Assembly (NCBI GenBank): GCA_964019135.1
Contig: OZ025256.1
Coordinates: 16,871,911 to 16,935,910 of the forward strand
Direction of reading: 5' to 3'
From: Arenicola marina
Taxonomy: Eukaryota > Annelida > Polychaeta > Arenicolidae
DNA length: 64,000 nucleotides
Shown here: one piece after another, positions 400 to 58,906 of the stretch
How the letters are laid out: every line of letters begins with the position of its first letter
How positions within the stretch are numbered: the first letter of the stretch is position 1
The notes under the pieces: generated by a model
The model's database searches: none
Seen by the model: only the letters and a program-made list of their open reading frames with translations
Told to the model about the DNA's origin: nothing
Program-made: the position numbers and the translations under genes

Positions 400-452
400 T
401 CAATATTTTGCCACTTCACTGCAGGTCACCAGAGCGAAGGCCAGGAATTCAA
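400..452 (-). CDS. TUBGCP5: TUBGCP5 exon 22 (terminal exon, stop)
   Basis: 53 nt including TGA at 402-400. With the carried C it reads LEFLAFALVTCSEVAKY, parallel to the human C terminus LESLALSLMAGMEQS. The acceptor TATATTTTCAG has a good pyrimidine tract. Short, but the phase, the position just beyond array A and the residue pattern all agree. Confidence 0.88.
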
Positions 453-3400
453 CTGAAAATATAACCACCACATGCATGTAAACGACAAAAGCCTCGATGA
501 TACCCATGACCAACGTGTAGCATTGGTGGATTCGCACAAACAATATATATTATAACACATGTGTATCCCCTGGCTATCAGCTAGGTGTTTCACCTCATCA
601 GATTCCAATACTTACGGTGAAATTCACTTTATTACCGAGATGTTATAAACAATATTTTCTTGGTGACGTAGCATAACACACTGTCATGACTTAGAGCACA
701 TGTTGACAGAGTGTAGCGGATCATCTATGACGTAGTACACACATACTTACGGTGAGGAACGGATCCTCTCTTGGTCATGTGGGTATGACGTAGTACACAC
801 ATACTTACGGTGAGGAACGGATCCTCTCTTGGTCATGTGGGTATGACGTAGTACACACATACTTACGGTCAGGGAATGATCCTCTCTTGGTCACGTGGGT
901 ATGACGTAATACACACATACTTACGGTGATGAAAGAATCCTCTCCTGGGACCGTATTCATAATCCCCTCGTAAGTTACGCACGAAAAGTGCGTTTTCATC
1001 TTAGCCTCACCAGCTCGTTGCGGTGGTGCTCATGATCAAGAAATCGTCTTCAAAATAATTTTAGCACTTTCTCAATTTAGAAAATCCACTTTTTGGGTGA
1101 CTTATGTATTTTGAACCCAAAAAACGACAAATCTTCCACTTAGCGCTAAGTCTATTGGCGCAGCCTAAGTGGTGATTTATGAATACGGCCCCTGGTCACG
1201 TGGGTATGACGTAGTACACACATACTTACGGCGAGGGAAGGATCCCCTCTTGATGACGTGGGTATGACGTAGTACACACATACTTACGGCGAGGGAAGGA
1301 TCCCCTCTTGATGACGTGGGTATGACGTAGTACACACATACTTACGGTCAGGGAAGGATCCTCTCTTGGTGACGTGGGTATGACGTAGTACACACATACT
1401 TACGGCGAGGGAAGGATCCCCTCTTGGTCACGTGGGTATGACGTAGTACACACATACTTACGGTCAGGGAAGGATCCTCTCTTGGTCACGTGGGTATGAC
1501 GTAGTACACACATACTTACGGCGAGGGAAGGATCCTCTCTTGATGACGTGGGTATGACGTAGTACACACATACTTACGGCGAGGGAAGGATCCCCTCTTG
1601 ATGACGTGGGTATGACGTAGTACACACATACTTACGGTCAGGGAAGGATCCTCTCTTGGTCACGTGGGTATGACGTAGTACACACATACTTACGGCGAGG
1701 GAAGGATCCCCTCTTGGTCACGTGGGTATGACGTAGTACACACATACTTACGGTCAAGAAAGGATCCTCTCTTGGTCACGTGGGTATGACGTAGTACACA
1801 CATACTTACGGCGAGGGAAGGATCCCCTCTTGATGATGTGGGTATGACGTAGTACACACATACTTACGGTCAGGGAAGGATCCTCTCTTGGTGACGTGGG
1901 TATGACGTAATACACACATACTTACGGTCAGGGAAGGATCCTCTCTTGGTGACGTGGGTATGACGTAGTACACACATACGTACGGTGAGGGAAGGATTCT
2001 CTCTTGGTCACGTGTGTATGACGTAGTATACACATACTTACGGTGAGGGAAGGATCCTCTCTTGGTCACGTGTGTATGACGTAGTAAACACATACTTACG
2101 GTCAGGGAAGGATCCTCTCTTGGTCACGTGGGTATGACGTAGTACACACATACTTACGGTCAGGGAAGGATCCTCTCTTGGTGACGTGGGTATGACGTAG
2201 TACACACATACTTACGGTCAGGGAAGGATCCTCTCTTGGTGACGTGGGTATGACGTAGTACACACATACTTACGGTGAGGGAAGGATCCTCTCTTGGTGA
2301 CGTTGGTCAGGAATGAAGACAGGAACAGGATACAACGAGAAACTTCCGCCTCTGCCTCAGTCAGTTGCTGGAAGCTGAGAGTGAAGGTCAAGGTCAAACA
2401 AGCTATCTCATAATAAATTATTCAGTAATAATCAGCATAAGCTCAGCAATTTGCTACAATGTATTTGAGACCATTCCATCTAATCTGATTACTTAATGAT
2501 GCAATTTCTTCTAAAATGTTTAATTATTTAACAAGGAATGATATCATTTAGTTTTACGCTAGACGTTCATCCTGTGGCCCTTTGAAGGCAAAGAACCAGT
2601 TGCCAATGAGCACCCAATCATTCAAAACATTGATAATGTGTACATTTATTGAATACTGGAAGGCCGTTGGCCCATTGGTAAATAATATAATTTCAATTAC
2701 ATGTGTGAGTCAGTTTTCATGGCATACTGTACTGCGGGGATACCAAACTAACAATTAACCATCATAAGGTCTCAGTTCTATCTCTATAAATGTTGCTAAG
2801 TTGTATAACTCTTTTGTATCTGTTGTCCCCATCACGGCCTGGAATCTGTGAGGTCGGTTTTTTAATTGCGCCAGTGGCATAAATTCCGCACGCAAGTCAT
2901 CATATAAAGGACATACAAAAAGTACACAAGGTATTCAGTACATCTAACATCCTCTACGTCTACCCCGTTATCGCGAGTATTAACACAATATTTACAATTC
3001 TAAAATATTGATAAAACTATTATGAACTCTTTTATTTCTTTTAAAAACATTGATTCCTCATACGCCCAAATCCAACAGGATGCAAGTAATGGCCTCCAAT
3101 GCGTAAATCATTTGCAGTTCATCATTATTTACCTGTAGCTGTCGACTCCCTCGTGCCACCTGGCGGCGAAGGTCAAAGCGAGGTTCATCACCTTGGTAAC
3201 CACTTCCCGGATGAAGGACACTCGCTTGTGGAGCAGACAGCGCTCGTACAGCTTCTTCACGTACGTCTTGTGCGCCAACAACACCTGGTCCAAGTCCTTC
3301 GCTTGCTGTATGTCAGACTCAAACTCCAGCCCAGTGCTGTGAAGTATCTACAATACAGGGGAGAATGTGATCGAAGGCAGCGAGTGGGGAAGAACAATTT

Positions 3401-12400: not shown

Positions 12401-15400
12401 GACATGGTACCAGTGACCATTAACTGATGAACTGACTACTCATCATGGAACCCATCACCCCAAGACATGGTACCAGTGACCATTAACTGATGAATTGACC
12501 ACTCACCATGGAACCTAAGTTCGTCCAAGTCGTACTTGACCCGTTTGATCTGCAGGAGAAAGCTGAAGACTTTGTTGTAGACTTCGATGCTTTTGGAGTT
12601 GATGATAATGTTGACTGGCCACGGCACCTACAACACAAGTGTCCCACCAACAACATTAGTAACGTGGAAAAAAACGCAATGACATACACGGCAATGGTGG
12701 ATTATTCTGCAATCGTGGAGAATCTAACATCATGTCATAGTTGTTTATATTCCGTCCATGACGGGAACTTATCAATGCAGGATTAACCAATCAGAATGGG
12801 CGTGACTTTACTGACAGCAGTTTTCATGCCTTGCCGTAGATGACTCAGCAAAACAAGACCCGCCATCTTTGAACCAACATCGCGGGTGGAAAAAAAATCC
12901 CGCGACATATGTTTTGGCGTCCTTTTCTAGTTCTGTGCATAGAAACACGCAATTTCTTGCAGGCAAATGATCTTAGCTAAGTCTTAGCTACTTCCAGACG
13001 TCACCATCTTAAAAATGTTGCGCAAATCATACCTTGTAGTCCAAGGTCAAGTCGTCAAGGACACCGATGGGATGATGCTTCTTTCTGGGTTTACTACCAG
13101 CCTCGTTGTGGAAGGTCACAAACAACCTGAAACGGAAGCAGGCACGGTTGGCTGTAGTTAGGTTGGCTGCTTGGTTGTGGGCGCATTTCTTTGGTAACCC
13201 GGGTGTATCCCTACAGTGGACCGAATACGCACATTACGCATCGGTTCACCGCCCGACAATTCTTTCACGCGGGTATGGGCTGATGGGTGCGCGCGCATCC
13301 ATTCGGTATGCCGATGTGCCCCGTTCTAAACAGCACGGGGCATTCAGAAGATGGCGGCTGATTGAAAGGTGATGAGAGTAGGTTGATTCCAGTGCCTTAA
13401 TGTGCACCGGATGTGAACGGTGTGTGCATTTCATTGGAATAGGCATATCTCTATCGGCACACTCGGAAGTTCCCTGTCACGTGTTGCGGGCCCGGGGCGG
13501 GCTACCGAACCTGGCCCAAAGAAATGCGCCCTGTATAGTCAGGATGCTTTAAACATTTGGTCATATCGCGTCAATGGGAGAAGGAAGGGGGAGTGGAGAC
13601 ATGTCCCGGGGTTACCCCCTACTCTTTGCGAAGAAGGACATGGGATCTTTACCCTGCGACCACACAGACATGGCCACAGCGGGGCTCCAACCACCGATCC
13701 ACGTGCCGTTAGGCTCTCAGGTGGCCAGAGCGCTCAATGCGAACGCTCTCCCCCACTGAGCTATCGGGCCGGCCCCCCTCACATCATGAACCTACGACAT
13801 AATTAACATGTAACAGATGAATCAGAGAGACAAAACTGGGGACAAACCTGTTGATTTCTTCCGGATAATGTTCCTGAAGGGCTTCTGCGAGGCAGCTATT
13901 CAGGAACGAGATGTCCTGCCACGAGTCCTGCCGATTGATCTGGATTGATCGGGATAGAGAAGAAACAATGTACCCCGCATTCTACACATTGTCTGGAGGT
14001 AAAATTTAAGGCTAGACAGACAGACTTATTTAATCCGGAATTAAGCATATGTCAGCGATAGGTCAAGCGAGACGAGCCGTGTACAAACCATTTACTTCAC
14101 AGAAACTATAACTGGTGTTGTGGTTAGCGCACTAGACGGCAGATCAACTCCGGGACTCCTGGCCTGGGCACCTAGTAATCTGGGGCCTGTGTCATCCATT
14201 CATCACTCATCTTTCAGCGGGGGGGGGGGGTTCCTTGGCCCAGTTTAGCCCTTGTGTACACAAAATCGGCCTAAAACACTTTCATTCGCAGAGACTTTTT
14301 CTGTGTATTGGATAACTGACTGATGGTCCATTGGTCTGGATCGCTTTATAATGATGGCGGCGCATTGACGGTGTATGCCACTTTGGTGCACGCATGCTAA
14401 TCCTGGTCAGGGCCCCGGGACCATGAGGTGAGGGGGTGAGATGGCCCCAGACACGGGCGGGGTTTGTACCCGCAACCGGTTGGTCTGCAGTCGACCACGC
14501 CACCCCGTCGCCCACGGTGTCTGCCCCAGTCACGGGCGGGGTTTGTACCCGCAACCTGCTGGTCTGCAGTCGACCACGCCACCCCCTGTCGACCACGGTG
14601 TCTGCCCCAGTCACGGGCGGGGTTTGTACCCGCAACCTGTTGGACTGCAGTCGACCACGCCAACCCGTCGACCACGGTGTCTGCCCCAGTCACGGGCGGG
14701 GTTTGTACCCGTAACCTGTTGGACTGCAGTCGACCACGCCAACCCGTCGACCACGGTGTCTGCCCCAGTCACGGGCGGGGTTTGTACCCGTAACCTGTTG
14801 GACTGCAGTCGACCACGCCAACCCGTCGACCACGGTGTCTGCCCCAGTCACGGGCGGGGTTTGTACCCGCAACCTGTTGGACTGCAGTCGACCACGCCAA
14901 CCCGTCGACCACGGTGTCTGCCCCAGTCACGGGCGGGGTTTGTACCCGTAACCTGTTGGACTGCAGTCGACCACGCCAACCCGTCGACCACGGTGTCTGC
15001 CCCAGTCACGGGCGGGGTTTGTACCCGTAACCTGTTGGACTGCAGTCGACCACGCCAACCCGTCGACCACGGTGTCTGCCCCAGTCACGGGCGGGGTTTG
15101 TACCCGTAACCTGTTGGACTGCAGTCGACCACGCCAACCCGTCGACCACGGTGTCTGCCCCAGTCACGGGCGGGGTTTGTACCCGCAACCTGTTGGTCTG
15201 CAGTCGACCACGCCACCCCGTCGACCACGGTGTCTGCCCCAGTCACGGGCGGGGTTTGTACCCGCAACCGGTTGGTCTGCAGTCGACCACGCCACCCCGT
15301 CGACCACGGTGTCTGCCCCAGTCACGGGCGGGGTTTGTACCCGTAACCTGTTGGTCTGCAGTCGACCACGCCACCCCGTCGACCACGGTGTCTGCCCCAG

Positions 15401-18400
15401 TCACGGGCGGGGTTTGTACCCGTAACCTGTTGGTCTGCAGTCGACCACGCCACCCCGTCGACCACGGTGTCTGCCCCAGTCACGGGCGGGGTTTGTACCT
15501 GCAACCTGTTGGTCTGCAGTCGACCACGCCACCCCGTCGACCACGGTGTCTGCCCCAGTCACGGGCGGGGTTTGTACCCGCAACCTGTTGGTCTGCAGTC
15601 GACCACGCCCCCCCGTCGACCACGGTGTCTCCCCCAGTCACGGGCGGGGTTTGTACCCTCAACCTGTTGGCCTGCAGTCGACCACGCCACCCCGTCGACC
15701 ACGGTGTCTCCCCCAGTCACGGGCGGGGTTTGTACCCTCAACCTGTTGGTCTGCAGTCGACCACGCCACCCCGTCGACCACGGTGTCTCCCCCAGTCACG
15801 GGCGGGGTTTGTACCCTCAACCTGTTGGTCTGCAGTCGAGCACGCCACCCCGTCGACCACGGTGTCTGCCCCAGTCACGGGCGGGGTTTGAACCCGCAAC
15901 CTGTTGGTCTGCAGTCGACCACGCCACCCCGTCGACCACGGTGTCTGCCCCAGTCACGGGCGGGGTTTGAACCCGCAACCTGTTGGTCTGCAGTCGACCA
16001 CGCCACCCCGTCGACCACGGTGTCTGCCCCAGTCACGGGCGGGGTTTGTACCCTCAACCTGTTGGCCTGCAGTCGACCACGCCACCCCGTCGACCACGGT
16101 GTCTCCCCCAGTCACGGGCGGGGTTTGTACCCTCAACCTGTTGGTCTGCAGTCGAGCACGCCACCCCGTCGACCACGGTGTCTGCCCCAGTCACGGGCGG
16201 GGTTTTTACCCTCAACCTGTTGGTCTGCAGTCGACCACGCCACCCCGTCGACCACGGTGTCTGCCCCAGTCCCGGGCGGGGTTTGTACCTGCAACCTGTT
16301 GGTCTGCAGTCGACCCCGTCGACCACGGTGTCTGCCCCAGTCACGGGCGGGGTTTGTACCCTCAACCTGTTGGTCTGCAGTCGACCACGCCACCCCGTCG
16401 ACCACGGTGTCTGCCCCAGTCCCGGGCGGGGTTTGTACCTGCAACCTGTTGGTCTGCAGTCGACCCCGTCGACCACGGTGTCTGCCCCAGTCACGGGCGG
16501 GGTTTGTACCCTCAACCTGTTGGTCTGCAGTCGACCACGCCACCCCGTCGACCACGGTGTCTGCCCCAGACACGGGCGGGGTTTGTACCTGCAACCTGTT
16601 GGTCTGCAGTCGACCACGCCACCCCGTCGACCACGGTGTCTGCCCCAGTCACGGGCGGGGTTTGAACCCGCAACCTGTTGGCCTGCAGTCGACCACGCCA
16701 CCCGTCGACCACGGCGGCTCCCCCAGTCACGGGCGCTGTTTGAACCCGCAACCTGTTGGTCTGCAGTCGACCACGCCACCCCGTCGACCACGGTGTCTGC
16801 CCCAGTCACGGGCGGGGTTTGTACCTGCAACCTGTTGGTCTGCAGTCGACCACGCCACCCCGTCGACCACGGTGTCTGCCCCAGTCACGGGCGGGGTTTG
16901 TACCTGCAACCTGTTGGTCTGCAGTCGACCACGCCACCCCGTCGACCACGGTGTCTGCCCCAGTCACGGGCGGGGTTTGAACCCGCAACCTGTTGGTCTG
17001 CAGTCGACCACGCCACCCCGTCGACCACGGTGTCTGCCCCAGTCACGGGCGGGGTTTGTACCGGCAACCTGTTGGTCTGCAGTCGACCACGCCACCCCGT
17101 CGACCACGGTGTCTGCCCCAGTCACGGGCGGGGTTTGAACCCGCAACCTGTTGGTCTGCAGTCGACCACGCCACCCCGTCGACCACGGTGTCTGCCCCAG
17201 TCACGGGCGCTGTTTGAACCCGCAACCTGTTGGCCTGCAGTCGACCACGCCACCCCGTCGACCACGGTGTCTGCCCCAGTCACGGGCGGGGTTTGAACCC
17301 GCAACCTGTTGGTCTGCAGTCGACCACGCCACCCCCCGTCGACCACGGCGGCTCCCCCAGTCACGGGCGCTGTTTGAACCCGCAACCTGTTGGCCTGCAG
17401 TCGACCACGCCACCCCGTCGACCACGGTGTCTGCCCCAGTCACGGGCGGGGTTTGAACCCGCAACCTGTTGGTCTGCAGTCGACCACGCCACCCCCCGTC
17501 GACCACGGCGGCTCCCCCAGTCACGGGCGCTGTTTGAACCCGCAACCTGTTGGTCTGCAGTCGACCACGCCACCCGTCGACCACGGTGTCTGCCCCAGTC
17601 ACGGGCGGGGTTTGTACCCTCAACCTGTTGGTCTGCAGTCGACCACGCCACCCCGTCGACCACGGTGTCTGCCCCAGTCCCGGGCGGGGTTTGAACCCGC
17701 AACCTGTTGGCCTGCAGTCGACCACGCCACCCCGTCGACCACGGTGTCTGCCCCAGTCACGGGCGGGGTTTGAACCCGCAACCTGTTGGCCTGCAGTCGA
17801 CCACGCCACCCCCCGTCGACCACGGCGGCTCCCCCAGTCACGGGCGCTGTTTGAACCCGCAACCTGTTGGTCTGCAGTCGACCACGCCACCCCGTCGCCC
17901 ACGGTGTCTGCCCCAGACACGGGCGGGGTTTGTACCCTCAACCTGTTGGTCTGCAGTCGACCACGCCCCCCCGTCGACCACGGTGTCTCCCCCAGTCACG
18001 GGCGCTGTTTGAACCCGCAACCTGTTGGTCTGCAGTCGACCACGCCACCCCCCGTCGACCACGGTGTCTGCCCCAGTCACGGGCGGGGTTTGTACCCGCA
18101 ACCTGTTGGTCTGCAGTCGACCACGCCACCCCGTCGACCACGGTGTCTGCCCCAGTCACGGGCGGGGTTTGTACCCTCAACCTGTTGGTCTGCAGTCGAC
18201 CACGCCACCCCGTCGACCACGGTGTCTCCCCCAGTCACGGGCGGGGTTTGAACCCGCAACCTGTTGGTCTGCAGTCGACCACGCCACCCCGTCGACCACG
18301 GTGTCTGCCCCAGTCACGGGCGGGGTTTGTACCCGCAACCTGTTGGTCTGCAGTCGACCACGCCACCCCGTCGACCACGGTGTCTGCCCCAGTCACGGGC

Positions 18401-33400: not shown

Positions 33401-36400
33401 TGGGCTGTAAGTAACAATCACAAGGGCATGGGAGGGTGGCGGTCACGGTCTGTGGGCTGTAAGTAACAATCACAAGGGCATGGGAGGGTGGCGGTCACGG
33501 TCTGTGGGCTGTAAGTAACAATCACAGGGGCATGGGAGGGTGGCGGTCACGGTCTGTGGGCTGTAAGTAACAATCACAGGGGCATGGGAGGGTGGCGGTC
33601 ACGGTCTGTGGGCTGTAAGTAACAATCACAAGGGCATGGGAGGGTGGCGGTCACGGTCTGTGGGCTGTAAGTAACAATCACAGGGGCATGGGAGGGTGGC
33701 GGTCACGGTCTGTGGGCTGTAAGTAACAATCACAAGGGCATGGGAGGGTGGCGGTCACGGTCTGTAAGTAACAATCACAAGGGCATGGGAGGGTGGCGGT
33801 CACGGTCTGTGGGCTGTAAGTAACAATCACAAGGGCATGGGAGGGTGGCGGTCACGGTCTGTGGGCTGTAAGTAACAATCACAAGGGCATGGGAGGGTGG
33901 CGGTCACGGTCTGTAAGTAACAATCACAAGGGCATGGGAGGGTGGCGGTCACGGTCTGTGGGCTGTAAGTAACAATCACAAGGGCATGGGAGGGTGGCGG
34001 TCACGGTCTGTAAGTAACAATCACAAGGGCATGGGAGGGTGGCGGTCACGGTCTGTGGGCTGTAAGTAACAATCACAGGGGCATGGGAGGGTGGCGGTCA
34101 CGGTCTGTGGGCTGTAAGTAACAATCACAAGGGCATGGGAGGGTGGCGGTCACGGTCTGTGGGCTGTAAGTAACAATCACAGGGGCATGGGAGGGTGGCG
34201 GTCACGGTCTGTGGGCTGTAAGTAACAATCACAAGGGCATGGGAGGGTGGCGGTCACGGTCTGTGGGCTGTAAGTAACAATCACCGGGGCATGGGAGGGT
34301 GGCGGTCACGGTCTGTGGGCTGTAAGTAACAATCACAGGGGCATGGGAGGGTGGCGGTCACGGTCTTTGGGCTGTAAGTAACAATCACAGGGGCATGGGA
34401 GGGTGGCGGTCACGGTCTGTGGGCTGTAAGTAACAATCACAGGGACATGGGAGGGTGGCGGTCACGGTCTGTGGGCTGTAAGTAACAATCACAGGGGCAT
34501 GGGAGGGTGGCGGTCACGGTCTGTGGGCTGTAAGTAACAATCACAGGGGCATGGGAGGGTGGCGGTCACGGTCTGTGGGCTGTAAGTAACAATCACAGGG
34601 GCATGGGAGGGTGGCGGTCACGGTCTGTGGGCTGTAAGTAACAATCACAGGGGCATGGGAGGGTGGCGGTCACGGTCTGTGGGCTGTAAGTAACAATCAC
34701 AGCGGCATGGGAGGGTGGCGGTCACGGTCTGTAAGTAACAATCACAGGGGCATGGGAGGGTGGCGGTCACGGTCTGTGGGCTGTAAGTAACAATCACAGG
34801 GGCATGGGAGGGTGGCGGTCACGGTCTGTGGGCTGTAAGTAACAATCACAGGGGCATGGGAGGGTGGCGGTCACGGTCTGTGGGCTGTAAGTAACAATCA
34901 CAGGGGCATGGGAGGGTGGCGGTCACGGTCTGTGGGCTGTAAGTAACAATCACAGGGGCATGGGAGGGTGGCGGTCACGGTCTGTGGGCTGTAAGTAACA
35001 ATCACAGGGGCATGGGAGGGTGGCGGTCACGGTCTGTGGGCTGTAAGTAACAATCACAGGGGCATGGAGAGGGTGGCGGTCACGGTCTGTGGGCTGTAAG
35101 TAACAATCGCAGGGGCATGGGAGGGTGGCGGTCACGGTCTGCGGGCTGTAAGTAACAATCACAGGGGCATGGGAGGGTGGCGGTCACGGTCTGTGGGCTG
35201 TAAGTAACAATCACAGGGGCATGGGAGGGTGGCGGTCACGGTCTGTAAGTAACTATCACAGGGGCATGGGAGGGTGGCGGTCACGGTCTGTGGGCTGTAA
35301 GTAACTATCACAGGGGCATGGGAGGGTGGCGGTCACGGTCTGTGGGCTGTAAGTAACTATCACAGGGGCATGGGAGGGTGGCGGTCACGGTCTGTAAGTA
35401 ACTATCACAGGGGCATGGGAGGGTGGCGGTCACGGTCTGTGGGCTGTAAGTAACTATCACAGGGGCATGGGAGGGTGGCGGTCACGGTCTGTGGGCTGTA
35501 AGTAACAATCACAGGGGCATGGGAGGGTGGCGGTCACGGTCTGTGGGCTGTAAGTAACAATCACAGGGGCATGGGAGGGTGGCGGTCACGGTCTGTGGGC
35601 TGTAAGTAACAATCACAAGGGCATGGGAGGGTGGCGGTCACGGTCTGTGGGCTGTAAGTAACAATCACAGGGGCATGGGAGGGTGGCGGTCACTGTCTGT
35701 GGGCTGTAAGTAACAATCACAGGGGCATGGGAGGGTGGCGGTCACGGTCTGTGGGCTGTAAGTAACAATCACAGGGGCATGGGAGGGTGGCGGTCACGGT
35801 CTGTGGGCTGTAAGTAACAATCACAGGGGCATGGAGAGGGTGGCGGTCACGGTCTGTGGGCTGTAAGTAACAATCGCAGGGGCATGGGAGGGTGGCGGTC
35901 ACGGTCTGCGGGCTGTAAGTAACAATCACAGGGGCATGGGAGGGTGGCGGTCACGGTCTGTGGGCTGTAAGTAACAATCACAGGGGCATGGGAGGGTGGC
36001 GGTCACGGTCTGTAAGTAACTATCACAGGGGCATGGGAGGGTGGCGGTCACGGTCTGTGGGCTGTAAGTAACTATCACAGGGGCATGGGAGGGTGGCGGT
36101 CACGGTCTGTGGGCTGTAAGTAACTATCACAGGGGCATGGGAGGGTGGCGGTCACGGTCTGTAAGTAACTATCACAGGGGCATGGGAGGGTGGCGGTCAC
36201 GGTCTGTGGGCTGTAAGTAACTATCACAGGGGCATGGGAGGGTGGCGGTCACGGTCTGTGGGCTGTAAGTAACAATCACAGGGGCATGGGAGGGTGGCGG
36301 TCACGGTCTGTGGGCTGTAAGTAACAATCACAAGGGCATGGGAGGGTGGCGGTCACGGTCTGTGGGCTGTAAGTAACAATCACAGGGGCATGGGAGGGTG

Positions 36401-39400
36401 GCGGTCACTGTCTGTGGGCTGTAAGTAACAATCACAGGGGCATGGGAGGGTGGCGGTCACGGTCTGTGGGCTGTAAGTAACAATCACAGGGGCATGGGAG
36501 GGTGGCGGTCACGGTCTGTGGGATTTAAGTAACAATCACAGGGGCATGGGAGGGTGGCGGTCACGGTCTGTGGGCTGTAAGTAACAATCACAGCGGCATG
36601 GGAGGGTGGCGGTCACGGTCTGTGGGCTGTAAGTAACAATCACAGGGGCATGGGAGGGTGGCGGTCACGGTCTGTGGGCTGTAAGTAACAATCACAGGGG
36701 CATGGGAGGGTGGCGGTCACGGTCTGTGGGCTGTAAGTAACAATCACAGGGGCATGGGAGGGTGGCGGTCACGGTCTGTGGGCTGTAAGTAACAATCACA
36801 GGGGCATGGGAGGGTGGCGGTCACGGTCTGTGGGCTGTAAGTAACAATCACAGGGGCATGGGAGGGTGGCGGTCACGGTCTGTGGGCTGTAAGTAACAAT
36901 CACAGGGGCATGGAGAGGGTGGCGGTCACGGTCTGTGGGCTGTAAGTAACAATCGCAGGGGCATGGGAGGGTGGCGGTCACGGTCTGTGGGCTGTAAGTA
37001 ACAATCACAGGGGCATGGAGAGGGTGGCGGTCACGGTCTGTGGGCTGTAAGTAACAATCGCAGGGGCATGGGAGGGTGGCGGTCACGGTCTGTGGGCTGT
37101 AAGTAACAATCACAGGGGCATGGGAGGGTGGCGGTCACGGTCTGTGGGCTGTAAGTAACAATCACAGGGGCATGGGAGGGTGGCGGTCACGGTCTGTGGG
37201 CTGTAAGTAACAATCACAGGGGCATGGGAGGGTGGCGGTCACGGTCTGTGGGCTGTAAGTAACAATCACAGGGGCATGGGAGGGTGGCGGTCACGGTCTG
37301 TGGGCTGTAAGTAACAATCACAGGGGCATGGGAGGGTGGCGGTCACGGTCTGTGGGCTGTAAGTAACAATCACAGGGGCATGGGAGGGTGGCGGTCACGG
37401 TCTGTGGGCTGTAAGTAACAATCACAGGGGCATGGGAGGGTGGCGGTCACGGTCTGTGGGCTGTAAGTAACAATCACAGGGGCATGGGAGGGTGGCGGTC
37501 ACGGTCTGTGGGCTGTAAGTAACAATCACAGGGGCATGGGAGGGTGGCGGTCACGGTATGTGGGCTGTAAGTAACAATCACAGGGGCATGGGAGGGTGGC
37601 GGTCACGGTCTGTGGGCTGTAAGTAACAATCACAGGGGCATGGGAGGGTGGCGGTCACGGTCTGTGGGCTGTAGGTAACAATCACAGGGGCATGGGAGGG
37701 TGGCGGTCACGGTCTGTGGGCTGTAAGTAACAATCACAGGGGCATGGGAGGGTGGCGGTCACGGTCTGTGGGCTGTAAGTAACAATCACAGGGGCATGGG
37801 AGGGTGGCGGTCACGGTCTGTGGGCTGTAAGTAACAATCACAGGGGCATGGGAGGGTGGCGGTCACGGTCTGTGGGCTGTAAGTAACAATCACAGGGGCA
37901 TGGGAGGGTGGCGGTCACGGTCTGTGGGCTGTAAGTAACAATCACAGGGGCATGGGAGGGTGGCGGTCACGGTCTGTGGGCTGTAAGTAACAATCACAGG
38001 GGCATGGGAGGGTGGCGGTCACGGTCTGTGGGCTGTAAGTAACAATCACAGGGGCATGGGAGGGTGGCGGTCACGGTCTGTGGGCTGTAAGTAACAATCA
38101 CAGGGGCATGGGAGGGTGGCGGTCACGGTCTGTGGGCTGTAAGTAACAATCACAGGGGCATGGGAGGGTGGCGGTCACGGTCTGTGGGCTGTAAGTAACA
38201 ATCACAGGGGCATGGGAGGGTGGCGGTCACGGTCTGTGGGCTGTAAGTAACAATCACAGGGGCATGGGAGGGTGGCGGTCACGGTCTGTGGGCTGTAAGT
38301 AACAATCACAGGGGCATGGGAGGGTGGCGGTCACGGTCTGTGGGCTGTAAGTAACAATCACAGGGGCATGGGAGGGTGGCGGTCACGGTCTGTGGGCTGT
38401 AAGTAACAATCACAGGGGCATGGGAGGGTGGCGGTCACGGTCTGTGGGCTGTAAGTAACAATCACAGGGGCATGGGAGGGTGGCGGTCACGGTCTGTGGG
38501 CTGTAAGTAACAATCACAGGGGCATGGGAGGGTGGCGGTCACGGTCTGTGGGCTGTAAGTAACAATCACAGGGGCATGGGAGGGTGGCGGTCACGGTCTG
38601 TGGGCTGTAAGTAACAATCACAGGAGCATGGGAGGGTGGCGGTCACGGTCTGTGGGCTGTAAGTAACAATCACAGGGGCATGGGAGGGTGGCGGTCACGG
38701 TCTGTGGGCTGTAAGTAACAATCACAGGGGCATGGGAGGGTGGCGGTCACGGTCTGTGGGCTGTAAGTAACAATCACAGGGGCATGGGAGGGTGGCGGTC
38801 ACGGTCTGTGGGCTGTAAGTAACAATCACAGGGGCATGGGAGGGTGGCGGTCACGGTCTGTGGGCTGTAAGTAACAATCACAGGGGCATGGGAGGGTGGC
38901 GGTCACGGTCTGTGGGCTGTAGGTAACAATCACAGGGGCATGGGAGGGTGGCGGTCACGGTCTGTGGGCTGTAAGTAACAATCACAGGGGCATGGGAGGG
39001 TGGCGGTCACGGTCTGTGGGCTGTAAGTAACAATCACAGGGGCATGGGAGGGTGGCGGTCACGGTCTGTGGGCTGTAAGTAACAATCACAGGGGCATGGG
39101 AGGGTGGCGGTCACGGTCTGTGGGCTGTAAGTAACAATCACAGCGGCATGGGAGGGTGGCGGTCACGGTCTGTGGGCTGTAAGTAACAATCACAGCGGCA
39201 TGGGGGGGTGGCGGTCACGGTCTGTGGGCTGTAAGTAACAATCACAGGGGCATGGGAGGGTGGCGGTCACGGTCTGTGGGCTGTAAGTAACAATCACAGG
39301 GGCATGGGAGGGTGGCGGTCACGGTCTGTGGGCTGTAAGTAACAATCACAGGGGCATGGGAGGGTGGCGGTCACGGTCTGTGGGCTGTAAGTAACAATCA

Positions 39401-42400
39401 CAGGGGCATGGGAGGGTGGCGGTCACGGTCTGTGGGCTGTAAGTAACAATCACAGGGGCATGGGAGGGTGGCGGTCACGGTCTGTGGGCTGTAAGTAACA
39501 ATCACAGGGGCATGGGAGGGTGGCGGTCACGGTCTGTGGGCTGTAAGTAACAATCACAGGGGCATGGAGAGGGTGGCGGTCACGGTCTGTGGGCTGTAAG
39601 TAACAATCGCAGGGGCATGGGAGGGTGGCGGTCACGGTCTGTGGGCTGTAAGTAACAATCACAGGGGCATGGGAGGGTGGCGGTCACGGTCTGTGGGCTG
39701 TAAGTAAGAATCACAGGGGCATGGGAGGGTGGCGGTCACGGTCTGTGGGCTGTAAGTAACAATCACAGGGGCATGGGAGGGTGGCGGTCACGGTCTGTGG
39801 GCTGTAAGTAACAATCACAGGGGCATGGGAGGGTGGCGGTCACGGTCTGTGGGCTGTAAGTAACAATCACAGGGGCATGGGAGGGTGGCGGTCACGGTCT
39901 GTGGGCTGTAAGTAACAATCACAGGGGCATGGGAGGGTGGCGGTCACGGTCTGTGGGCTGTAAGTAACAATCACAGGGGCATGGGAGGGTGGCGGTCACG
40001 GTCTGTGGGCTGTAAGTAACAATCACAGGGGCATGGGAGGGTGGCGGTCACGGTCTGTGGGCTGTAAGTAACAATCACAGGGGCATGGAGAGGGTGGCGG
40101 TCACGGTCTGTGGGCTGTAAGTAACAATCACAGGGGCATGGGAGGGTGGCGGTCACGGTCTGTGGGCTGTAAGTAACAATCACAGGGGCATGGGAGGGTG
40201 GCGGTCATGGTCTGTGGGCTGTAAGTAACAATCACAGGGGCATGGGAGGGTGGCGGTCACGGTCTGTGGGCTGTTAGTAACAATCACAGGGGCATGGGAG
40301 GGTGGCGGTCACGGTCTGTGGGCTGCAAGTAACAATCACAGGGGCATGGGAGGGTGGCGGTCACGGTCTGTGGGCTGTAAGTAACAATCACAGGGGCATG
40401 GGAGGGTGGCGGTCACGGTCTGTGGGCTGTAAGTAACAATCACAGGGGCATGGAGAGGGTGGCGGTCACGGTCTGTGGGCTGTAAGTAACAATCACAGGG
40501 GCATGGGAGGGTGGCGGTCACGGTATGTGGGCTGTAAGTAACAATCACAGGGGCATGGGAGGGTGGCGGTCATGGTCTGTGGGCTGTAAGTAACAATCAC
40601 AGGGGCATGGGAGGGTGGCGGTCACGGTCTGTGGGCTGTAAGTAACAATCACAGGGGCATGGGAGGGTGGCGGTCACGGTCTGTGGGCTGTAAGTAACAA
40701 TCACAGGGGCATGGGAGGGTGGCGGTCACGGTCTGTGGGCTGTAAGTAACAATCACAGGGGCATGGGAGGGTGGCGGTCACGGTCTGTGGGCTGTAAGTC
40801 ACAATCACAGGGGCATGGGAGGGTGGCGGTCACGGTCTGTGGGCTGTAAGTAACAATCACAGGGGCATGGGAGGGTGGCGGTCACGGTCTGTGGGCTGTA
40901 AGTAACAATCACAGGGGCATGGGAGGGTGGCGGTCACGGTCTGTAAGTAACAATCACAGGGGCATGGGAGGGTGGCGGTCACGGTCTGTGGGCTGTAAGT
41001 AACAATCACAGGGGCATGGGAGGGTGGCGGTCACGGTCTGTAAGTAACAATCACAGGGGCATGGGAGGGTGGCGGTCACGGTCTGTGGGCTGTAAGTAAC
41101 AATCACAGGGGCATGGGAGGGTGGCGGTCACGGTCTGTAAGTAACAATCACAGGGGCATGGGAGGGTGGCGGTCACGGTCTGTAAGTAACAATCACAGGG
41201 GCATGGGAGGGTGGCGGTCACGGTCTGTGGGCTGTAAGTAACAATCACAGGGGCATGGGAGGGTGGCGGTCACGGTCTGTAAGTAACAATCACAGGGGCA
41301 TGGGAGGGTGGCGGTCACGGTCTGTAAGTAACAATCACAGGGGCATGGGAGGGTGGCGGTCACGGTCTGTGGGCTGTAAGTAACAATCCCAGGGGCATGG
41401 GAGGGTGGCGGTCACGGTCTGTAAGTAACAATCACAGGGGCATGGGAGGGTGGCGGTCACGGTCTGTGGGCTGTAAGTAACAATCCCAGGGGCATGGGAG
41501 GGTGGCGGTCACGGTCTGTAAGTAACAATCACAGGGGCATGGGAGGGTGGCGGTCACGGTCTGTGGGCTGTAAGTAACAATCCCAGGGGCATGGGAGGGT
41601 GGCGGTCACGGTCTGTAAGTAACAATCACAGGGGCATGGGAGGGTGGCGGTCACGGTCTGTGGGCTGTAAGTAACAATCACAGGGGCATGGGAGGGTGGC
41701 GGTCACGGTCTGTGGGCTGTAAGTAACAATCACAGGGGCATGGGAGGGTGGCGGTCACGGTCTGTGGGCTGTAAGTAACAATCACAGGGGCATGGGAGGG
41801 TGGCGGTCACGGTCTGTGGGCTGTAAGTAACAATCACAGGGGCATGGGAGGGTGGCGGTCACGGTCTGTGGGCTGTAAGTAACAATCCCAGGGGCATGGG
41901 AGGGTGGCGGTCACGGTCTGTAAGTAACAATCACAGGGGCATGGGAGGGTGGCGGTCACGGTCTGTAAGTAACAATCCCAGGGGCATGGGAGGGTGGCGG
42001 TCACGGTCTGTGGGCTGTAAGTAACAATCACAGGGGCATGGGAGGGTGGCGGTCACGGTCTGTAAGTAACAATCACAGGGGCATGGGAGGGTGGCGGTCA
42101 CGGTCTGTAAGTAACAATCACAGGGGCATGGGAGGGTGGCGGTCACGGTCTGTAAGTAACAATCACAGGGGCATGGGAGGGTGGCGGTCACGGTCTGTAA
42201 GTAACAATCACAGGGGCATGGGAGGGTGGCGGTCACGGTCTGTAAGTAACAATCACAGGGGCATGGGAGGGTGGCGGTCACGGTCTGTAAGTAACAATCA
42301 CAGGGGCATGGGAGGGTGGCGGTCACGGTCTGTAAGTAACAATCCCAGGGGCATGGGAGGGTGGCGGTCACGGTCTGTAAGTAACAATCACAGGGGCGTG

Positions 42401-45400
42401 GGAGGGTGGCGGTCACGGTCTGTAAGTAACAATCACAGGGGCATGGGAGGGTGGCGGTCACGGTCTGTAAGTAACAATCACAGGGGCATGGGAGGGTGGC
42501 GGTCACGGTCTGTAAGTAACAATCCCAGGGGCATGGGAGGGTGGCGGTCACGGTCTGTGGTCTGTAAGTAACAATCACAGGGGCGTATCGATCGTAATAC
42601 AAAATTTTAAAATTAATCAAAATACTAGTGATAGAAATTATTATATTATACAGATTAAATATTAGTATAAAAAACACAGTATATATTTTTGATACAAATC
42701 CGCTGCAATTATTTATATCTTCTTTAGAAGGAGAAGTGGTGGGTAACAGAACCTTATGACCACTATGTTAAATGGCAGGTAATAAAGGAAGCCACAAAGC
42801 TCTAGGAAACGGAGATATCCATACCATACGTTGGCGCGCCCCAACACAGAAATCAGCGGAGGTCGTTTTATAACAACGCTTCTTCCAATACATCTATGCG
42901 GAGAACAATAACACAGGCATACAACCCCATCCTATCAACAGCCCCCACCCGCCCTCTCCCAACAATACAGGTGGGACTGGCCCTTCCCTAGTTGTCCAAT
43001 GCAAACAAGATAGCTATGGAATTAGATGGTGGTCCACTTTCGGGTACCCAGCCGGCTTAATTTGTTATATCTGGTTACGTCTCGGGATGGGGCACAAAGG
43101 ACCGGAATGGTAGGGGTGGTTGGGGGGGGGGGTCCATTTCTACAGAAGAACTCTATAGAGGCCAGTTTCTATTGATGATACTGGTGACCTAGAACGTGTG
43201 ACGCTCAGTTTAGAGACTAAAAACAACCTGAGTGAACATAGTAAAGTAATCATCAAAAGTAATCGAGATTACGATTACATTGGCAATGTAATACATTGCT
43301 TTTAAAACCAATGTAATCGATTACGACTACTTGGAAAATGTAATCGATTACGATTACTGATTATGATTACCCCATGTCTGGTAACCACCAGAACCAGTAC
43401 ACAATTTAATGCCGCCCTCTGGTTATCCAGTTTGTGAGGTAACAAGTCGCAACAATAGGAGAATATTCCGACGGTAAGACGACGAGATACCGTCTGCTGC
43501 AGACCGGTGGATGGCCATGTACCTTGACAGTGCAGCTTGGCTTCCACCCGCCTCAGAGTGGTCCTGTAGGACTGCAGGTACTCGGCCAGCGCCCCAGCGA
43601 ACGCCTGGTACGTGCGACACGTCGGCAGCGTCGAGTCAGCGTCCGTCGTGACTTCTACGTTCGTCGCGACCTCCACGAACGCCTGCAGCTCCTGTACGGC
43701 GGAAGCGTACAGCGCCATCTGCGTTAAGAGTGTGCGCAGAGATTCCTGAAAGTGTAGACGGCGCGATTAGTGAATGAAGTGACATAGATTGGTATTTTAG
43801 GCCATGTTTGTGCACACAAGGGCTATATTGGATCCAGAAACAACGCCGGACGTTAATGGATGAAATATGGATGCCGAAGGTAAGGCTAGGCCCGAACCCA
43901 GGACCCGTTATGTGCGCTAACGACTACACCAGTGAGCCCCCCCCCCACCTCCCGTTAGTAAAGGAAGTGCCAACTTCCGCTCTTACCGAGGCCCAGATCT
44001 ACTGTTATCATGTATACCTTCAAATAATAGACACAATAGTTGGCACTGTTGCAGAAGGAAACTGGTTGTCATTATGACGATCCAATTTGCATCAATTATA
44101 AGTATCTAATTACTAAATCCTAAAATTATAAGGTTACTCCCGAAATTAGGGTTCCTTTCCACCTTGACCCTTCTCTTTTCTCGCGACATGACCTACAGAG
44201 GCTAAAGCATCATATTTATAAGCAACAAAAAAAGCCTCTGTGTCTTGGGTCGTTATGCGTTATTCTTAAAGCAGTTATTAAACGACGTCCATTTCTTCGT
44301 TACTATGGTAATCACCTGGGCCACATGGCTTAACTGGATGTCCTGTCTGGGTGCGAGGCTCTCTCCCTGCCGCTGGAAGATGAACGACCGCTGTGCACCC
44401 CCCAGCAACCTGAAGTGGGGTGAAACCCCAGTAACTCGGGGGTTACTATCGGGGGGTATTTATCTCTTTGACAAATCTTTTCACTAATTTACGCTCCACA
44501 TATTGTGCTACAATCCTGATAGCTGCTTAGTGAATTCGCCGGCAACAAATGTTATGCTACATTATAGGAAGAAAAATAGTTCGCGACGACGAAAGTAATT
44601 CAATAGCGCGTACGGTACGAAAAGGAATATCATTTTACTTTGGTGAGTTATGTTTTAAGTCGGGACAAGAGACTGCCAATAGTATATACACGTTATCTCA
44701 CTTCAGAAAATTGTATAAGACTATATATTTGGCAGTACAAACGAAAACACTATAATGAACTTAGCCATTTTTGTTTACGAAGCACTCACCTTAAAGAGAG
44801 TCATTTCTAGCATCGCTGCAGCTGGCGTTTTTTATATAGACCTGTATGTCATCTAACTGACTATTGTATCGCAAATTGCATAGTTTATGAACTTAGTCAT
44901 TTTTGTTTACGAAGCATTCAACTTAAAGAGAGTCATTTGTAGCATCGCTGCAGCTGACGTTCGTATATAGACCTGTATGTCATCTAACTGACTAGTGTAT
45001 CGCAAATTGCATAGCTTTAACATGGGAGTTGTGCCCAAAATACTGAATAAGACATATACCATTTACCATACCATACGTTTCACAGCGAACTCGTTCATGC
45101 TGCAGTATGCGACGAGAAGAACAGACCGGTACAGACTGGGACCATAGCTTACCATAACATTTCTCTCATCAAGTGATATTCCGTGAGGTGGTATTTCGGC
45201 GTAGGAACATAGATGGAATTCAATTTGCATTGGTACGCTTCCCTACAAACAATAGATACACAACAGGTGACATGGCATACACAAGAACAAGTAAATTAGC
45301 AATGTTATAATTCATCACTGTAAACATTAAGGGTCAACTTCCCCCCACACCCCCAACACCAACCCACCCAATACACACGCTTACCAGTCGGCCGCGAGAT

Positions 45401-48400
45401 TGCAGGACGGATGCGGCAGTTTGTCTGGAGCGTCATCCCTGACTCCGGTCCAGTACTGAACCATCACGTTATCCCGGAGCCACTCCAGAACGTCGTCCGC
45501 CGCACCGGGACTACCGAGAGCGGAGTCCGGAGAGTCCATACCACCACTCCCTGGATCACCCCAGCCGTCCTCTGACCGCCCAGTGAGGCCGGCACCGCTG
45601 GCGAAGGCGAGTTTCTTATGTGACGTTCTGTCCAGAGTAGAGTCCTCATCTTCATCATCATCTGACCACTGGGAAAGAAAATATCTTTTTCTTATCCCTT
45701 ATATACAATGAACGAATTGGTGTTTTACGGCGCTTTTGTGCACAGAAGGGCGTAAAACGGGGTCAAGGCCCCTCCAGGCACGAATGAAGGATGAACTGAA
45801 GACCAGGTCAGATGTCCGGGTTCGCATTCGAACCCAGGACCCATTGATCTGCGGGCTGGTGCGCTAACCACTACACCAGGGAGGCCCCCAGGACCTATTG
45901 ATCTGCGGTCTAGTACGCTAACCACTACACCAGGGAGGTCCCCAGGACCTATTGATCTGCGGTCTAGTGCGCTAACCACTACACCAGGTAGTCCCCCAGG
46001 ACCTACTGATCTGCGGTCTAGTGCGCTAACCACTACACCAGGTAGTCCCCCAGGACCTATTTATCTGCGGTCTAGTGCGCTAACCACTACACCAGGGAGG
46101 CCCCCAGGACCTATTGATCTGCGGGCTGGTGCGCTAACCACTACACCAGGGAGGCCCCCCGGACCTATTGATCTGCGGTCTAGTGCGCTAACCACTACAC
46201 CAGGGAGGCACCCAGGACCTATTGATCTGCGGTCTAGTGCGCCAACCACTACACCAGGGAGGCCCCCAGGACCTATTGATCTGCGGTCTAGTACGCTAAC
46301 CACTACACCAGGGAGGTCCCCAGGACCTATTGATCTGCGGTCTAGTGCGCTAACCACTACACCAGGTAGTCCCCCAGGACCTACTGATCTGCGGTCTAGT
46401 GCGCTAACCACTACACCAGGTAGTCCCCCAGGACCTATTTATCTGCGGTCTAGTGCGCTAACCACTACACCAGGGAGGCCCCCAGGACCTATTGATCTGC
46501 GGGCTGGTGCGCTAACCACTACACCAGGGAGGCCCCCCGGACCTATTGATCTGCGGTCTAGTGCGCTAACCACTACACCAGGGAGGCACCCAGGACCTAT
46601 TGATCTGCGGTCTAGTGCGCTAACCACTACACCAGTGAGGTCCCCAGGACCTATTGATCTGCGGTCTAGTGCGCTGACCGCTACACCAGGGAGGCCCCAA
46701 GATCCTATTGATCTGCGGTCTAGTGCGCTAACCACTACACCAGGGAGGCCCCCAGGACATATTGATCTGCGGTCTAGTGCGCTAACCACTACACCAGGGA
46801 GGCCCCAACGTCCTATTTATCTGCGGTCTAGTGCGCTAACCACTACACCAGCGAGGCCCCCAAGATCTATTGATCTGCGGTCTAGTGCGCTAACCACTAC
46901 ACCAGGGAGGCCCCCAGGACCTATTGATCTGCGGTCTAGTACGCTAACCACTACACCAGGGAGGCCCCCAGGACCTATTGATCTGCGGTCTAGTACGCTA
47001 ACCACTACACCAGGGAGGCCCCCAGGACCTATTGATCTGCGGTCTAGTACGCTAACCAATACACCAAGGAGGCCCCCCGGACCTATTGATCTGCGGTCTG
47101 GTACGCTAACCACTACACCAGCGAGGCCCCCAGGACCTATTGATCTGCGGTCTGGTACGCTAACCACTACACCAGCGAGGCCCCCAGGACCTATTGATCT
47201 GCGGTCTAGTACGCTAACCACTACACCAGGGAGGCCCCCAGGACCTATTGATCTGCGGTCTAGTACGCTAACCACTACACCAGGGAGGCCCCCAGGACCT
47301 ATTGATCTGCGGTCTAGTACGCTAACCACTACACCAGGGAGGCCCCCAGGACCTATTGCTCTGCGGTCTAGTACGCTAACCCCTACACCAAGGAGGCCCC
47401 CCGGACATATTGATCTGCGGTCTAGTACGCTAACCACTACACCAGGGAGGCCCCCAGGACCTATTGATCTGCGGTCTAGTACGCTAACCACTACACCAGG
47501 GAGGCCCCCAGGACCTATTGATCTGCGGTCTAGTACGCTAACCACTACACCAGGGAGGCCCCCAGGACCTATTGATCTGCGGTCTAGTACGCTAACCACT
47601 ACACCAGGGAGGCCCCCAGGACCTATTGATCTGCGGTCTAGTACGCTAACCACTACACCAGGGTGGCCCCCAGGACATATTGATCTGCGGTCTAGTGCGC
47701 TAACCACTACACCAGGGCGGCCCCCAAGATCTATAGATCTGCGGTCTAGTGCACTAACCACTACACCAGGGAGGCCCCCAGGACCTATTGATCTGCGGTC
47801 TAGTGCGCTAACCACTACACCAGGGAGGCCCCCAGGACCTATTGATCTGCGGTCTAGTACGCTAACCACTACACCAGGGAGGCCCCCCGGACCTATTGAT
47901 CTGCGGTCTAGTGCGCCAACCACTACACCAGGGAGGCCCCCAGGACCTATTGATCTGCGGTCTAGTACGCTAACCACTACACCAGGGAGGCCCCCCGGAC
48001 CTATTGATCTGCGGTCTAGTGCACTAACCACTACACCAGGGAGGCCCCCAGGACCTATTGATCTGCGGTCTAGTACGCTAACCACTACACCAGGGAGGCC
48101 CCCAGGACCTATTGATCTGCGGTCTAGTACGCTAACCACTACACCAGGGAGGCACCCAGGACCTATTGATTTGCGGTCTAGTACGCTAACCACTACACCA
48201 GGGAGGCCCCCAGGACCTATTGATCTGCGGTCTAGTACGCTAACCACTACACCAGGGAGGCCCCCAGGACATATTGATCTGCGGTCTAGTAAGCTAACCA
48301 CTACACCAGGGAGGCCCCCAGGACCTATTGATCTGCGGTCTAGTACGCTAACCACTACACCAGGGAGGCCCCCCTCAGGCTGAGCGGTAGATTAACAGGT

Positions 48401-57838: not shown

Positions 57839-57844
57839 GCTGTG

Positions 57845-58906
57845 ATGGAGGTGTATGACGGTTGTTACTGCTGTGTCAAGCCTTCCACATCCCACAACGG
57901 ACATTCAATGACCTCAGCATCTGGTTCCCTGTCAGGTGGAGGTGCTGCATACAGCTGGACGCAAGAGGCACCACGTGATCAGGCCTCCATGGACCTTGAC
58001 TCGGCTCTCAACGAGCTGGGGATGTTGAGCACCGTGACAGATGGTCGGCGGGAGTACCAACGGGAGGAGGAAGATCGCTACCGGCGCCAGCAGCAGCAGA
58101 GAAGAGCCCGGGCCAGCCTTCCACCTAGGGAGCGCAACCTCAGCGAGTCTGCCTTGGGCGGAGGGGGCGGCTTCTCTGCCGCCACGCCATCCAACAGCCC
58201 TAACAAACCGGGCACCTGCCACATACTCCAACTCAACACGCAGTTTGTGACCGGGTTCTCCACCGGGAGCAGCGGCGGGGAGGGCGGCAGCACTTGGAAG
58301 AGCGGCGACCCCACGGGTTTGCAGACGCTCGCCCCGCCGCCCCCGCAGACATCCGGGACTCTGGCCGGCGCCGCCCGACTGGACTTTGGCGAGCGCTACG
58401 ACCAAGCGGAATTGGCCGCTCTGTATAACCGCTGCGTGCGGCTAAAACAAAACCGAGGACGTCATAATAAGAAACCGTACGAGTTTCCCAGGCGATGTGA
58501 GCGCATGGAGTCTTCGATCAGGATTGAGCAGGTGATGTCTCTTCCCGTACCGATATTTTCCCTCGATCAGGGACCAGCGATTCACATCGATGGCTTATTG
58601 TACAACAGCAGAGAACAAGAACTTGAACCGCCCACGTTCTGTCGGTCCCTGGAGAGAACCGGCAGACCGCCAGGCGCCGAGAAGCGCTGCGCCAGCTCCA
58701 ACGCGAGTACCCCTGAAAAGAAAGAGAACCGAACCTCATTCGATCTCCACATCGAGGCCGCGTCCGTCACGCGCTCTAGGTCTCTCGACGACTTAGATCT
58801 CTCCAAACTCAGCGTCACTGACTCAGAAAACCACAACTTTATTCAAGAAAGAAAAGACATTGATCATGTTTCTCAGCGTTTGCTAAACTTCCATGTCCAA
58901 GAATAA
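57845..58906 (+). CDS. Terminal coding exon of an unrecognised plus-strand gene, 353 aa
   Basis: An open frame of 353 codons begins MEVYDGCYCCVKPSTSHNGH and ends in NFHVQE, stop TAA at 58904-58906. The exon opens at 57839 after a long T run ending in AG, so at least one upstream exon, probably 5' UTR, exists. The protein is soluble-looking and low-complexity: an acidic LDSALNELG segment (about residues 36-55), a Gln/Arg-rich patch (about 70-90), a Gly-rich region, a basic GRHNKKPYEFPRRCER segment (about 207-222), and a C-terminal Ser/Arg-Asp/Leu motif (RSRSLDDLDLSKL). No transmembrane segment or catalytic motif is visible. GC content rises sharply over the exon, and codon use looks genuine. 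I do not recognise the family and offer no function. It lies head to head with TUBGCP5. Confidence 0.75.
   Translation: MEVYDGCYCCVKPSTSHNGHSMTSASGSLSGGGAAYSWTQEAPRDQASMDLDSALNELGMLSTVTDGRREYQREEEDRYRRQQQQRRARASLPPRERNLSESALGGGGGFSAATPSNSPNKPGTCHILQLNTQFVTGFSTGSSGGEGGSTWKSGDPTGLQTLAPPPPQTSGTLAGAARLDFGERYDQAELAALYNRCVRLKQNRGRHNKKPYEFPRRCERMESSIRIEQVMSLPVPIFSLDQGPAIHIDGLLYNSREQELEPPTFCRSLERTGRPPGAEKRCASSNASTPEKKENRTSFDLHIEAASVTRSRSLDDLDLSKLSVTDSENHNFIQERKDIDHVSQRLLNFHVQE

Follow-up and report, generated by a model that had tools for sequence, protein, structure and literature searches.

Minisatellites that repeat a splice site and lie against the exon to which that site belongs are found in the gene TUBGCP5 of the annelid Arenicola marina, and arrays of the same build recur, as judged from open frames, splice motifs and protein families, at unrelated genes of its genome. 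These arrays are the same kind of element as the mirages of amphioxus, but in another phylum and, in TUBGCP5, in far more copies. We think it probable, if well short of certain, that they are splice-boundary minisatellites of the mirage type at several genes, which began as short microhomology duplications at exon edges, expanded into the intron and are tolerated by splicing, the copied sites being passengers. Earlier reports concern mirages in single amphioxus genes and short boundary repeats in duplicated human genes; now several unrelated annelid genes are involved, with up to hundreds of copies. Two questions thereby become testable, namely how an exon edge turns into a tandem repeat and how the spliceosome chooses one among hundreds of near-identical sites.

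Five long arrays in TUBGCP5

The window, that is the whole analysed stretch of 64,000 nucleotides on contig C9 (assembly of 867 Mb in 762 contigs), carries TUBGCP5 on its minus strand. The gene is identified by exon translations that match GCP5 chains in PDB and the Pfam family GCP_C_terminal, and its exons are numbered as in the initial annotation, a sequence-only reading. Beyond the TUBGCP5 exons found here, the plus strand holds a GC-rich open frame of 355 codons (57839-58906) with a weak match to the Pfam family UNC119_bdg, under the cut-off (E 0.004). TRF finds five long arrays in TUBGCP5: A, B and D touch exons 21, 18 and 10, while C and E touch none. Arrays and exons are given below in the order of the window, a slash marking the splice junction.

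401..452, minus strand: predicted last exon (exon 22) of TUBGCP5, LEFLAFALVTCSEVAKY-stop, with acceptor TATATTTTCAG; target of intron 21
726..948, minus strand: distal piece of array A, 3.8 copies of the 58-bp unit (TRF)
949..1192, minus strand: insert inside array A, some 240 bp long and bounded by the inverted ends GGCCGTATTCATAA...TTATGAATACGG, read directly
1193..2307, minus strand: main piece of array A, 19.2 copies of 58 bp (TRF), each with a CACC/GTAAGT-like donor
2274..2367, minus strand: exon 21 of TUBGCP5, with a predicted start and the donor following 2274; splice sites scored
4377..12515, minus strand: array B, 130.1 copies of a 63-bp unit (TRF), nearly all with CCATG/GTGAG
12507..12627, minus strand: exon 18 of TUBGCP5; homology gives its start, and the donor follows 12507
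14444..20402, minus strand: array C, a tRNA-Gln-like unit of 79 bp in 75.7 copies; mid-intron and off any junction (counter-example)
25501..25703, minus strand: exon 10 of TUBGCP5, beginning with base 25703 and matching GCP5 in PDB at E 2.2e-6; donor predicted
25704..42584, minus strand: array D, 332.4 copies of a 52-bp unit (TRF), 16.9 kb, nearly all ending in TTACTTACAG
45833..48373, strand not given: array E, 47 copies of 54 bp (TRF); mid-intron and off any junction (counter-example)

The initial annotation had placed three arrays at exons 21, 18 and 10, with units of 58, 63 and 52 bp, a scale of about 26.6 kb and nearly 500 copies, and TRF together with protein homology bears this out: A, B and D comprise about 485 copies over TRF spans of 26.4 kb, or 26.6 kb when the insert inside A is counted. 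The three unit sequences are, as it had stated, unrelated to one another, and growth is into the intron, the arrays running downstream of the two donors and upstream of the acceptor. It had further described every array as starting on, and containing, the exon/intron boundary, and here the arrays divide. A start on the junction is correct for D, which stops precisely at the AG preceding exon 10, whereas A and B have their edges 30-34 nt inside exon 21 and 9 nt inside exon 18, respectively, and carry copies of the 5' splice site onward into the intron. Conversely, A and B do contain the boundary, while D includes the AG with 0 nt of exon sequence and thus abuts rather than spans it. Beyond the insert and the distal piece of A lies a degenerate unit with GTAAGT, at about 618. 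Since the insert with its inverted ends sits inside A, A probably predates it.

Protein homology that runs up to each array edge supports the junctions of exons 10, 18 and 21 predicted there. Exon 18 matches GCP5 in PDB (E 3.2e-7) and Pfam GCP_C_terminal (E 8.5e-10) and ends at 12507 with LRFH-G/GTGAGT, in letters ...GGTTCCATG/GTGAGT, after VKYDLDELRFH. Exon 10 begins at 25703 with TTACTTACAG/AGGAGATC, a start given by homology to GCP5, and by the same homology the last copy of D is its authentic acceptor. The match of exon 21 to GCP5 in PDB is weak (E 0.47), yet in register at RGSFPH: the exon ends at 2274 with RGSFPH-C/GTAAGT (...AAGAGAGGATCCTTCCCTCACC/GTAAGT), where GCP5 has RGSFPH-L. The frame of exon 22 completes RGSFPH/L, as in RGSFPHLESL of GCP5, with LEFLAFALVTCSEVAKY supplying the rest of the L codon, and because this last exon fits at 452, TUBGCP5 probably ends near 401. 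The proposal that the authentic junction lies in the copy touching the exon thus agrees with protein homology in A, B and D, that of exon 21 being weak and in register.

Array C is built of head-to-tail tRNA-Gln(CTG)-like units on the minus strand, 14 of about 76 of which are called by ARAGORN; none of its units reaches the Rfam gathering score, and Rfam gives 0 matches at gathering over the whole window. Array E resembles, by eye, part of a tRNA-derived element (...GGTCTAGTACGCTAACCACTACACCA...). If each array is given a 12% chance of lying at a junction, a rough assumption, the location of three of the five there has P ~0.014; the window having been picked for such arrays, this value is post hoc.

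The copied splice sites and the edges of the arrays

Selection on the copied splice sites was sought in A, B and D by per-position conservation and was not found. Mean conservation per unit position is 0.958 in the main piece of A, 0.986 in B and 0.993 in D, and the splice motif compares with the rest of the unit as 0.953 vs 0.959 in A, 0.982 vs 0.987 in B and 0.995 vs 0.992 in D. As the motif is no better conserved than the remainder of the unit, the copies do not appear to be kept for splicing and look passive; B copy 2 apart, the copied sites are neither protected nor purged. These values also bear on the idea that the arrays are functional, as a sponge for U1 or U2AF, as a transcription timer or as a source of alternative exon lengths (63 bp being in frame), which we regard as very improbable. 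The splice dinucleotide is indeed intact in 19/19 copies of the main piece of A, 129/130 of B and 272/274 of D (copies with both bases aligned), as such a function would have it, but the motif positions are conserved no more than their surroundings.

A second point against functional arrays comes from B. Its unit is 63 bp long and mostly open in the frame of exon 18, so that a retained intron would encode long repeats of 21 residues. Copy 2, which adjoins the authentic donor, is the sole donor without GT among 123 parsed, and it also puts an in-frame stop (TAG) into the otherwise open 21-codon repeat; with the stop present and the donor lost, longer in-frame exons would be blocked. This copy hints at some selection on the copies, as a single event seen after the fact.

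The edges of B retain a trace of what may have been the founding event. B opens with the word GGTTC, inside the exon, and closes with the same word where the distal flank GAACCC begins, the two being in phase with the 63-bp unit; this points to a duplication joined by 5-bp microhomology, which would leave such edges. In A, ACGTCA occurs at both ends in a register that is not clean, and microhomology is clear for B only. At 4000-4380, adjoining the distal end of B, GGGTTCGAACCC bears a resemblance, judged by eye, to the B box found in tRNA-derived SINEs, and the microhomology word of B may come from this SINE-like stretch.

From the build of the arrays we infer the following course. A short tandem duplication of about 30-70 bp, with breakpoints flanking or at an exon edge and joined by a few bases of microhomology, would make the start, and unequal exchange or slippage would then expand the array into the intron and homogenise it. 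Because the edge copy would still splice, a duplication over an exon edge would be harmless and could persist and grow into the intron; and because the exon-proximal copy would retain the authentic site, splicing would remove all other copies and leave the protein unchanged. Only duplications whose edge copy retains the junction, and whose growth is into the intron, would survive. Tolerance by splicing explains the survival of junction arrays. Two observations stand against it as the full account. Tolerance alone predicts a few per cent of arrays at junctions, whereas the small samples available give 3/5, 3/10 and 3/7; and boundary repeats in duplicated human genes, according to the cited passages, change splicing and may form introns (PMC2812944).

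In the reverse order of events, tandem duplication of an exon piece with AG/GT would have created splice sites and hence an intron younger than the array. Such a model is published, in the passages cited, for mirages (PMC3087553) and for human boundary repeats (PMC2812944), and many donors elsewhere in the genome studied here read AG/GTRAGT, though they were selected for that word. For TUBGCP5 we hold this order to be improbable: introns 9, 18 and 21 also hold non-array sequence, D is free of exon sequence, and the donors of A and B read CC/GT and TG/GT, not AG/GT.

Junction arrays at other genes and their frequency

To sample arrays elsewhere, the genome was searched with patterns of three donors in tandem (AGGTAAGT, AGGTGAGT) at a spacing of 38-68 bp; the sampled arrays are those among the matches listed, on C1 and, for GGATTCCA, on C1, C2, C4 and the start of C5. 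The latter is a neutral word, free of GT, AG, AC and CT. Thirteen of 28 sampled arrays (among the matches listed) reach an exon-like ORF at one of its splice sites, donor or acceptor. With the donor motif AGGTRAGT, 7 of 11 distinct arrays, all on C1 and among the matches listed, start within an exon-like ORF, at the donor of that frame; the exons include one of ALDH ending in AGWCDKIQ (period 39), a tubulin-tyrosine-ligase-like one ending in LVDSAFDDMLK (52), an AASS-like one ending in ALLDAILEK (41) and four others. Three of seven arrays found with the permuted motif AAGTAGGT lie at junctions (donors of ST7 and Dpy19, acceptor of L036), as do 3/10 found with GGATTCCA (donors of L088 and L094, acceptor of a PhoPQ-related exon in L099), both counts being among the matches listed. 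L067 and L072, which showed no exon, and L066 and L074/L082, where the array fills the sequence read up to its limit and its edge is unseen, were counted as misses in the donor set; L081 and L098, with array edges beyond the stretch read, were likewise counted as misses. The ten GGATTCCA arrays exclude two places, C1 9636430 and C1 53295267, set aside beforehand as apparent copies of a single dispersed element.

Pfam was searched with ten exon ORFs, and seven match a family. Five matches are above the cut-off (Aldedh, E 7e-8; TTL, 8.5e-15; ST7, 5e-32; Dpy19, 6e-12; PhoPQ_related, 6e-7) and two under it (AlaDh/PNT, E 4e-5; Lustrin, 1e-4), and in all seven the alignment reaches within about 5 residues of the junction. 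Six further exon ORFs, among them those of L036, L070 and L068, gave zero Pfam matches, and a PDB search with two unmatched exon ORFs gave nothing convincing; six of the 13 junction calls are therefore made from the open frame and the splice sites only. To the initial annotation the scale in TUBGCP5 looked exceptional, a view not supported as it stands, since arrays of the same build are present in other genes, though D is large. The occurrence in several independent genes, at donor as well as acceptor ends, with differing unit lengths and copy variants and on contigs of 43-77 Mb, also makes it scarcely credible that collapsed or inflated repeats were mis-assembled at exon edges, even if the copy numbers of arrays so long can be wrong in any assembly.

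Some words proved unsuitable for counting. The motif AAGTAGGT was rejected as a clean control, as it contains GTAGGT and 3/7 of its own arrays are at junctions, and TGGCGATT was rejected as a search word, its many places belonging to apparently one dispersed family. The matches to TGGCGATT include, at G000:C1:45199914 and other places on C1-C5, an apparent dispersed element in which TGGCGATTTTCGCCATAACAAACAG recurs as an internal repeat of 40 bp, the letters having been read at one place. Whole-genome counts of triples are 7112 for AGGTAAGT, 11842 for AGGTGAGT, 1172 for AAGTAGGT, 1712 for AGTAAGGT, 2077 for AAGGTAGT and 6488 for AGTGAGGT. The same six patterns reversed give 2915 to 6354 matches genome-wide, so several unrelated words approach the donor counts. 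Raw pattern matches were dropped as array counts because long arrays dominate them.

Distinct arrays give a different measure. On C1, AGGTAAGT (GTAAGT) yields 8 in 19.6 Mb and its three dinucleotide-identical permutations 20 in 197.6 Mb (AAGGTAGT 9 in 77.0 Mb, AGTAAGGT 4 in 61.3 and AAGTAGGT 7 in 59.3), all among the matches listed; the density of GTAAGT arrays is thus 4.0 times that of the permutations (P 0.003, or 0.009 without the last array, in view of the stopping rule). The GTGAGT pattern AGGTGAGT has no clear excess: it yields 3 arrays in 1.75 Mb, and its permutation AGTGAGGT yields 2 in 3.5 Mb, again among the matches listed. The 3/10 of GGATTCCA has P 0.009 if 4.5% are expected and 0.07 if 10% are, both expectations assuming a junction density, and a Fisher test of 7/11 (donor motif) against 3/10 (neutral motif) is not significant (P 0.20). 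An excess of junction arrays over chance is therefore likely, though not firmly measured, the samples being small and the density test partly negative (GTGAGT).

Two answers to such frequent junction arrays are live, namely a nucleating process at transcribed exon edges and a longer survival of exon-anchored arrays. Under the first, splice junctions would nucleate duplication through breaks or template switches coupled to transcription or splicing (R-loop, U1-bound nascent RNA, a fragile GC step at exon ends), and arrays would be far commoner there. The fourfold density of GTAAGT arrays, the 3/10 of the neutral word and the 3/5 of TUBGCP5 favour this process; the GTGAGT result does not, nor do the three TUBGCP5 units, which share no sequence and hold the junction anywhere within the unit, nor the edges of B with their look of plain microhomology, and the expectation itself is built on an assumed junction density. 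We consider it possible, though on balance doubtful. The initial annotation had read a splice-site-nucleated mechanism from the pattern itself, which goes too far, since the survival of splice-removable duplications explains much of the pattern and B resembles an ordinary microhomology duplication; such a mechanism for the arrays is possible. Its wider form, in which splice junctions are hot spots of minisatellite birth throughout the genome in this lineage, by duplication of exon edges coupled to transcription or splicing and independently in annelids and cephalochordates, we treat as a tentative idea of about the same standing. If it were true, splice sites would be the starting point for a large part of the genome's minisatellites and for much of the growth of its introns, and splicing or transcription would be linked to the birth of repeats and the growth of introns.

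Under the second answer, arrays would arise everywhere and intronic ones would decay, while exon-anchored ones would keep a clean copy that reseeds and homogenises the array and would so grow long. This would explain the excess without a special mutational process, and the D copy adjoining exon 10 does show 0 divergence from the consensus. However, C and E lie wholly within introns and are nevertheless long, at 76 and 47 copies, with neighbouring copies matching at 94% (TRF), and in the copies of A the exonic part is conserved at 0.931 vs 0.987 for the intronic part, against constant reseeding from the exon. We rate this answer as unlikely, below nucleation, and prefer microhomology duplication tolerated by splicing.

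Relation to known boundary repeats and mirages

Introns are reportedly gained by tandem duplication of AG/GT proto-splice sites, a process for which PMC3087553 cites Rogers, Gao and Lynch, and Zhuo et al. Splice sites are carried alike in the arrays described here, but existing introns are lengthened, without a demonstrated new intron.

The mitochondrial contig of the assembly (C762) carries its genes on one strand in the order cox1-cox2-cox3-nad6-cob-atp6-nad5-nad4L-nad4-rRNAs-nad1-nad3-nad2, which we take to be the annelid order; the genes were named by eye from their translations (cox1 by Pfam) and the places of the rRNAs were derived from a gap and tRNA-Val. Annelid mitochondrial genes are described, in the part of the source cited, as lying on one strand in a conserved order common to the group (PMC4505326). 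By this gene order the host is most likely an annelid, and amphioxus was rejected as host; a resemblance in COI makes a polychaete likely. Searches for repeats of this class in an open-access collection that omits most subscription journals gave the two amphioxus papers and the human one cited below, and no annelid case. The earthworm metallothionein genes have ordinary minisatellites in intron 1 (PMC12783039); these are long, intronic and from an annelid, like C and E, and the cited passages report no link to splice sites (PMC12783039).

Minisatellites at exon-intron boundaries are also described from another animal group, in human genes of segmental duplications, where units of about 30 bp in about 4 copies are described as modifying introns, in 27 cases, and may create novel introns (PMC2812944, passages cited). 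The human repeats differ from the annelid ones in belonging to recent paralogs, in arising within exons and in being able to make novel introns or to stay in the mRNA (PMC2812944, same passages).

The closest counterparts are the mirages of amphioxus, to which the initial annotation had rightly linked the arrays. In the cited passages, mirages are tandem units that carry the exon-intron boundary, at 5' and at 3' sites (PMC3087553, PMC3902484), and they are reported not to disturb splicing (PMC3087553). Tandem units of minisatellite size are present here (TRF periods 58, 63 and 52), and A and B have exon and intron sequence in each copy (30-34 nt and 9 nt of exon, respectively). With 0 nt of exon, the unit of D does not span the boundary, and we do not file D as a strict mirage, though it works alike. 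The amphioxus globin mirages were, by the same passages, checked by RT-PCR, while the annelid arrays are known here from sequence alone. Common to both, as far as those passages go, are the boundary-carrying units, the authentic junction in the edge copy and the AG/GT kept in many copies, and the unit lengths overlap (10-72 bp in Adh3 vs 58, 63 and 52 bp here). What sets the present arrays apart is the annelid host, the 13 further loci reached by sampling, an array (D) that abuts its exon without copying it, and a size of up to 332 copies and 16.9 kb, compared with the 3 or 6 units given for BflGb6 in the amphioxus passages cited.
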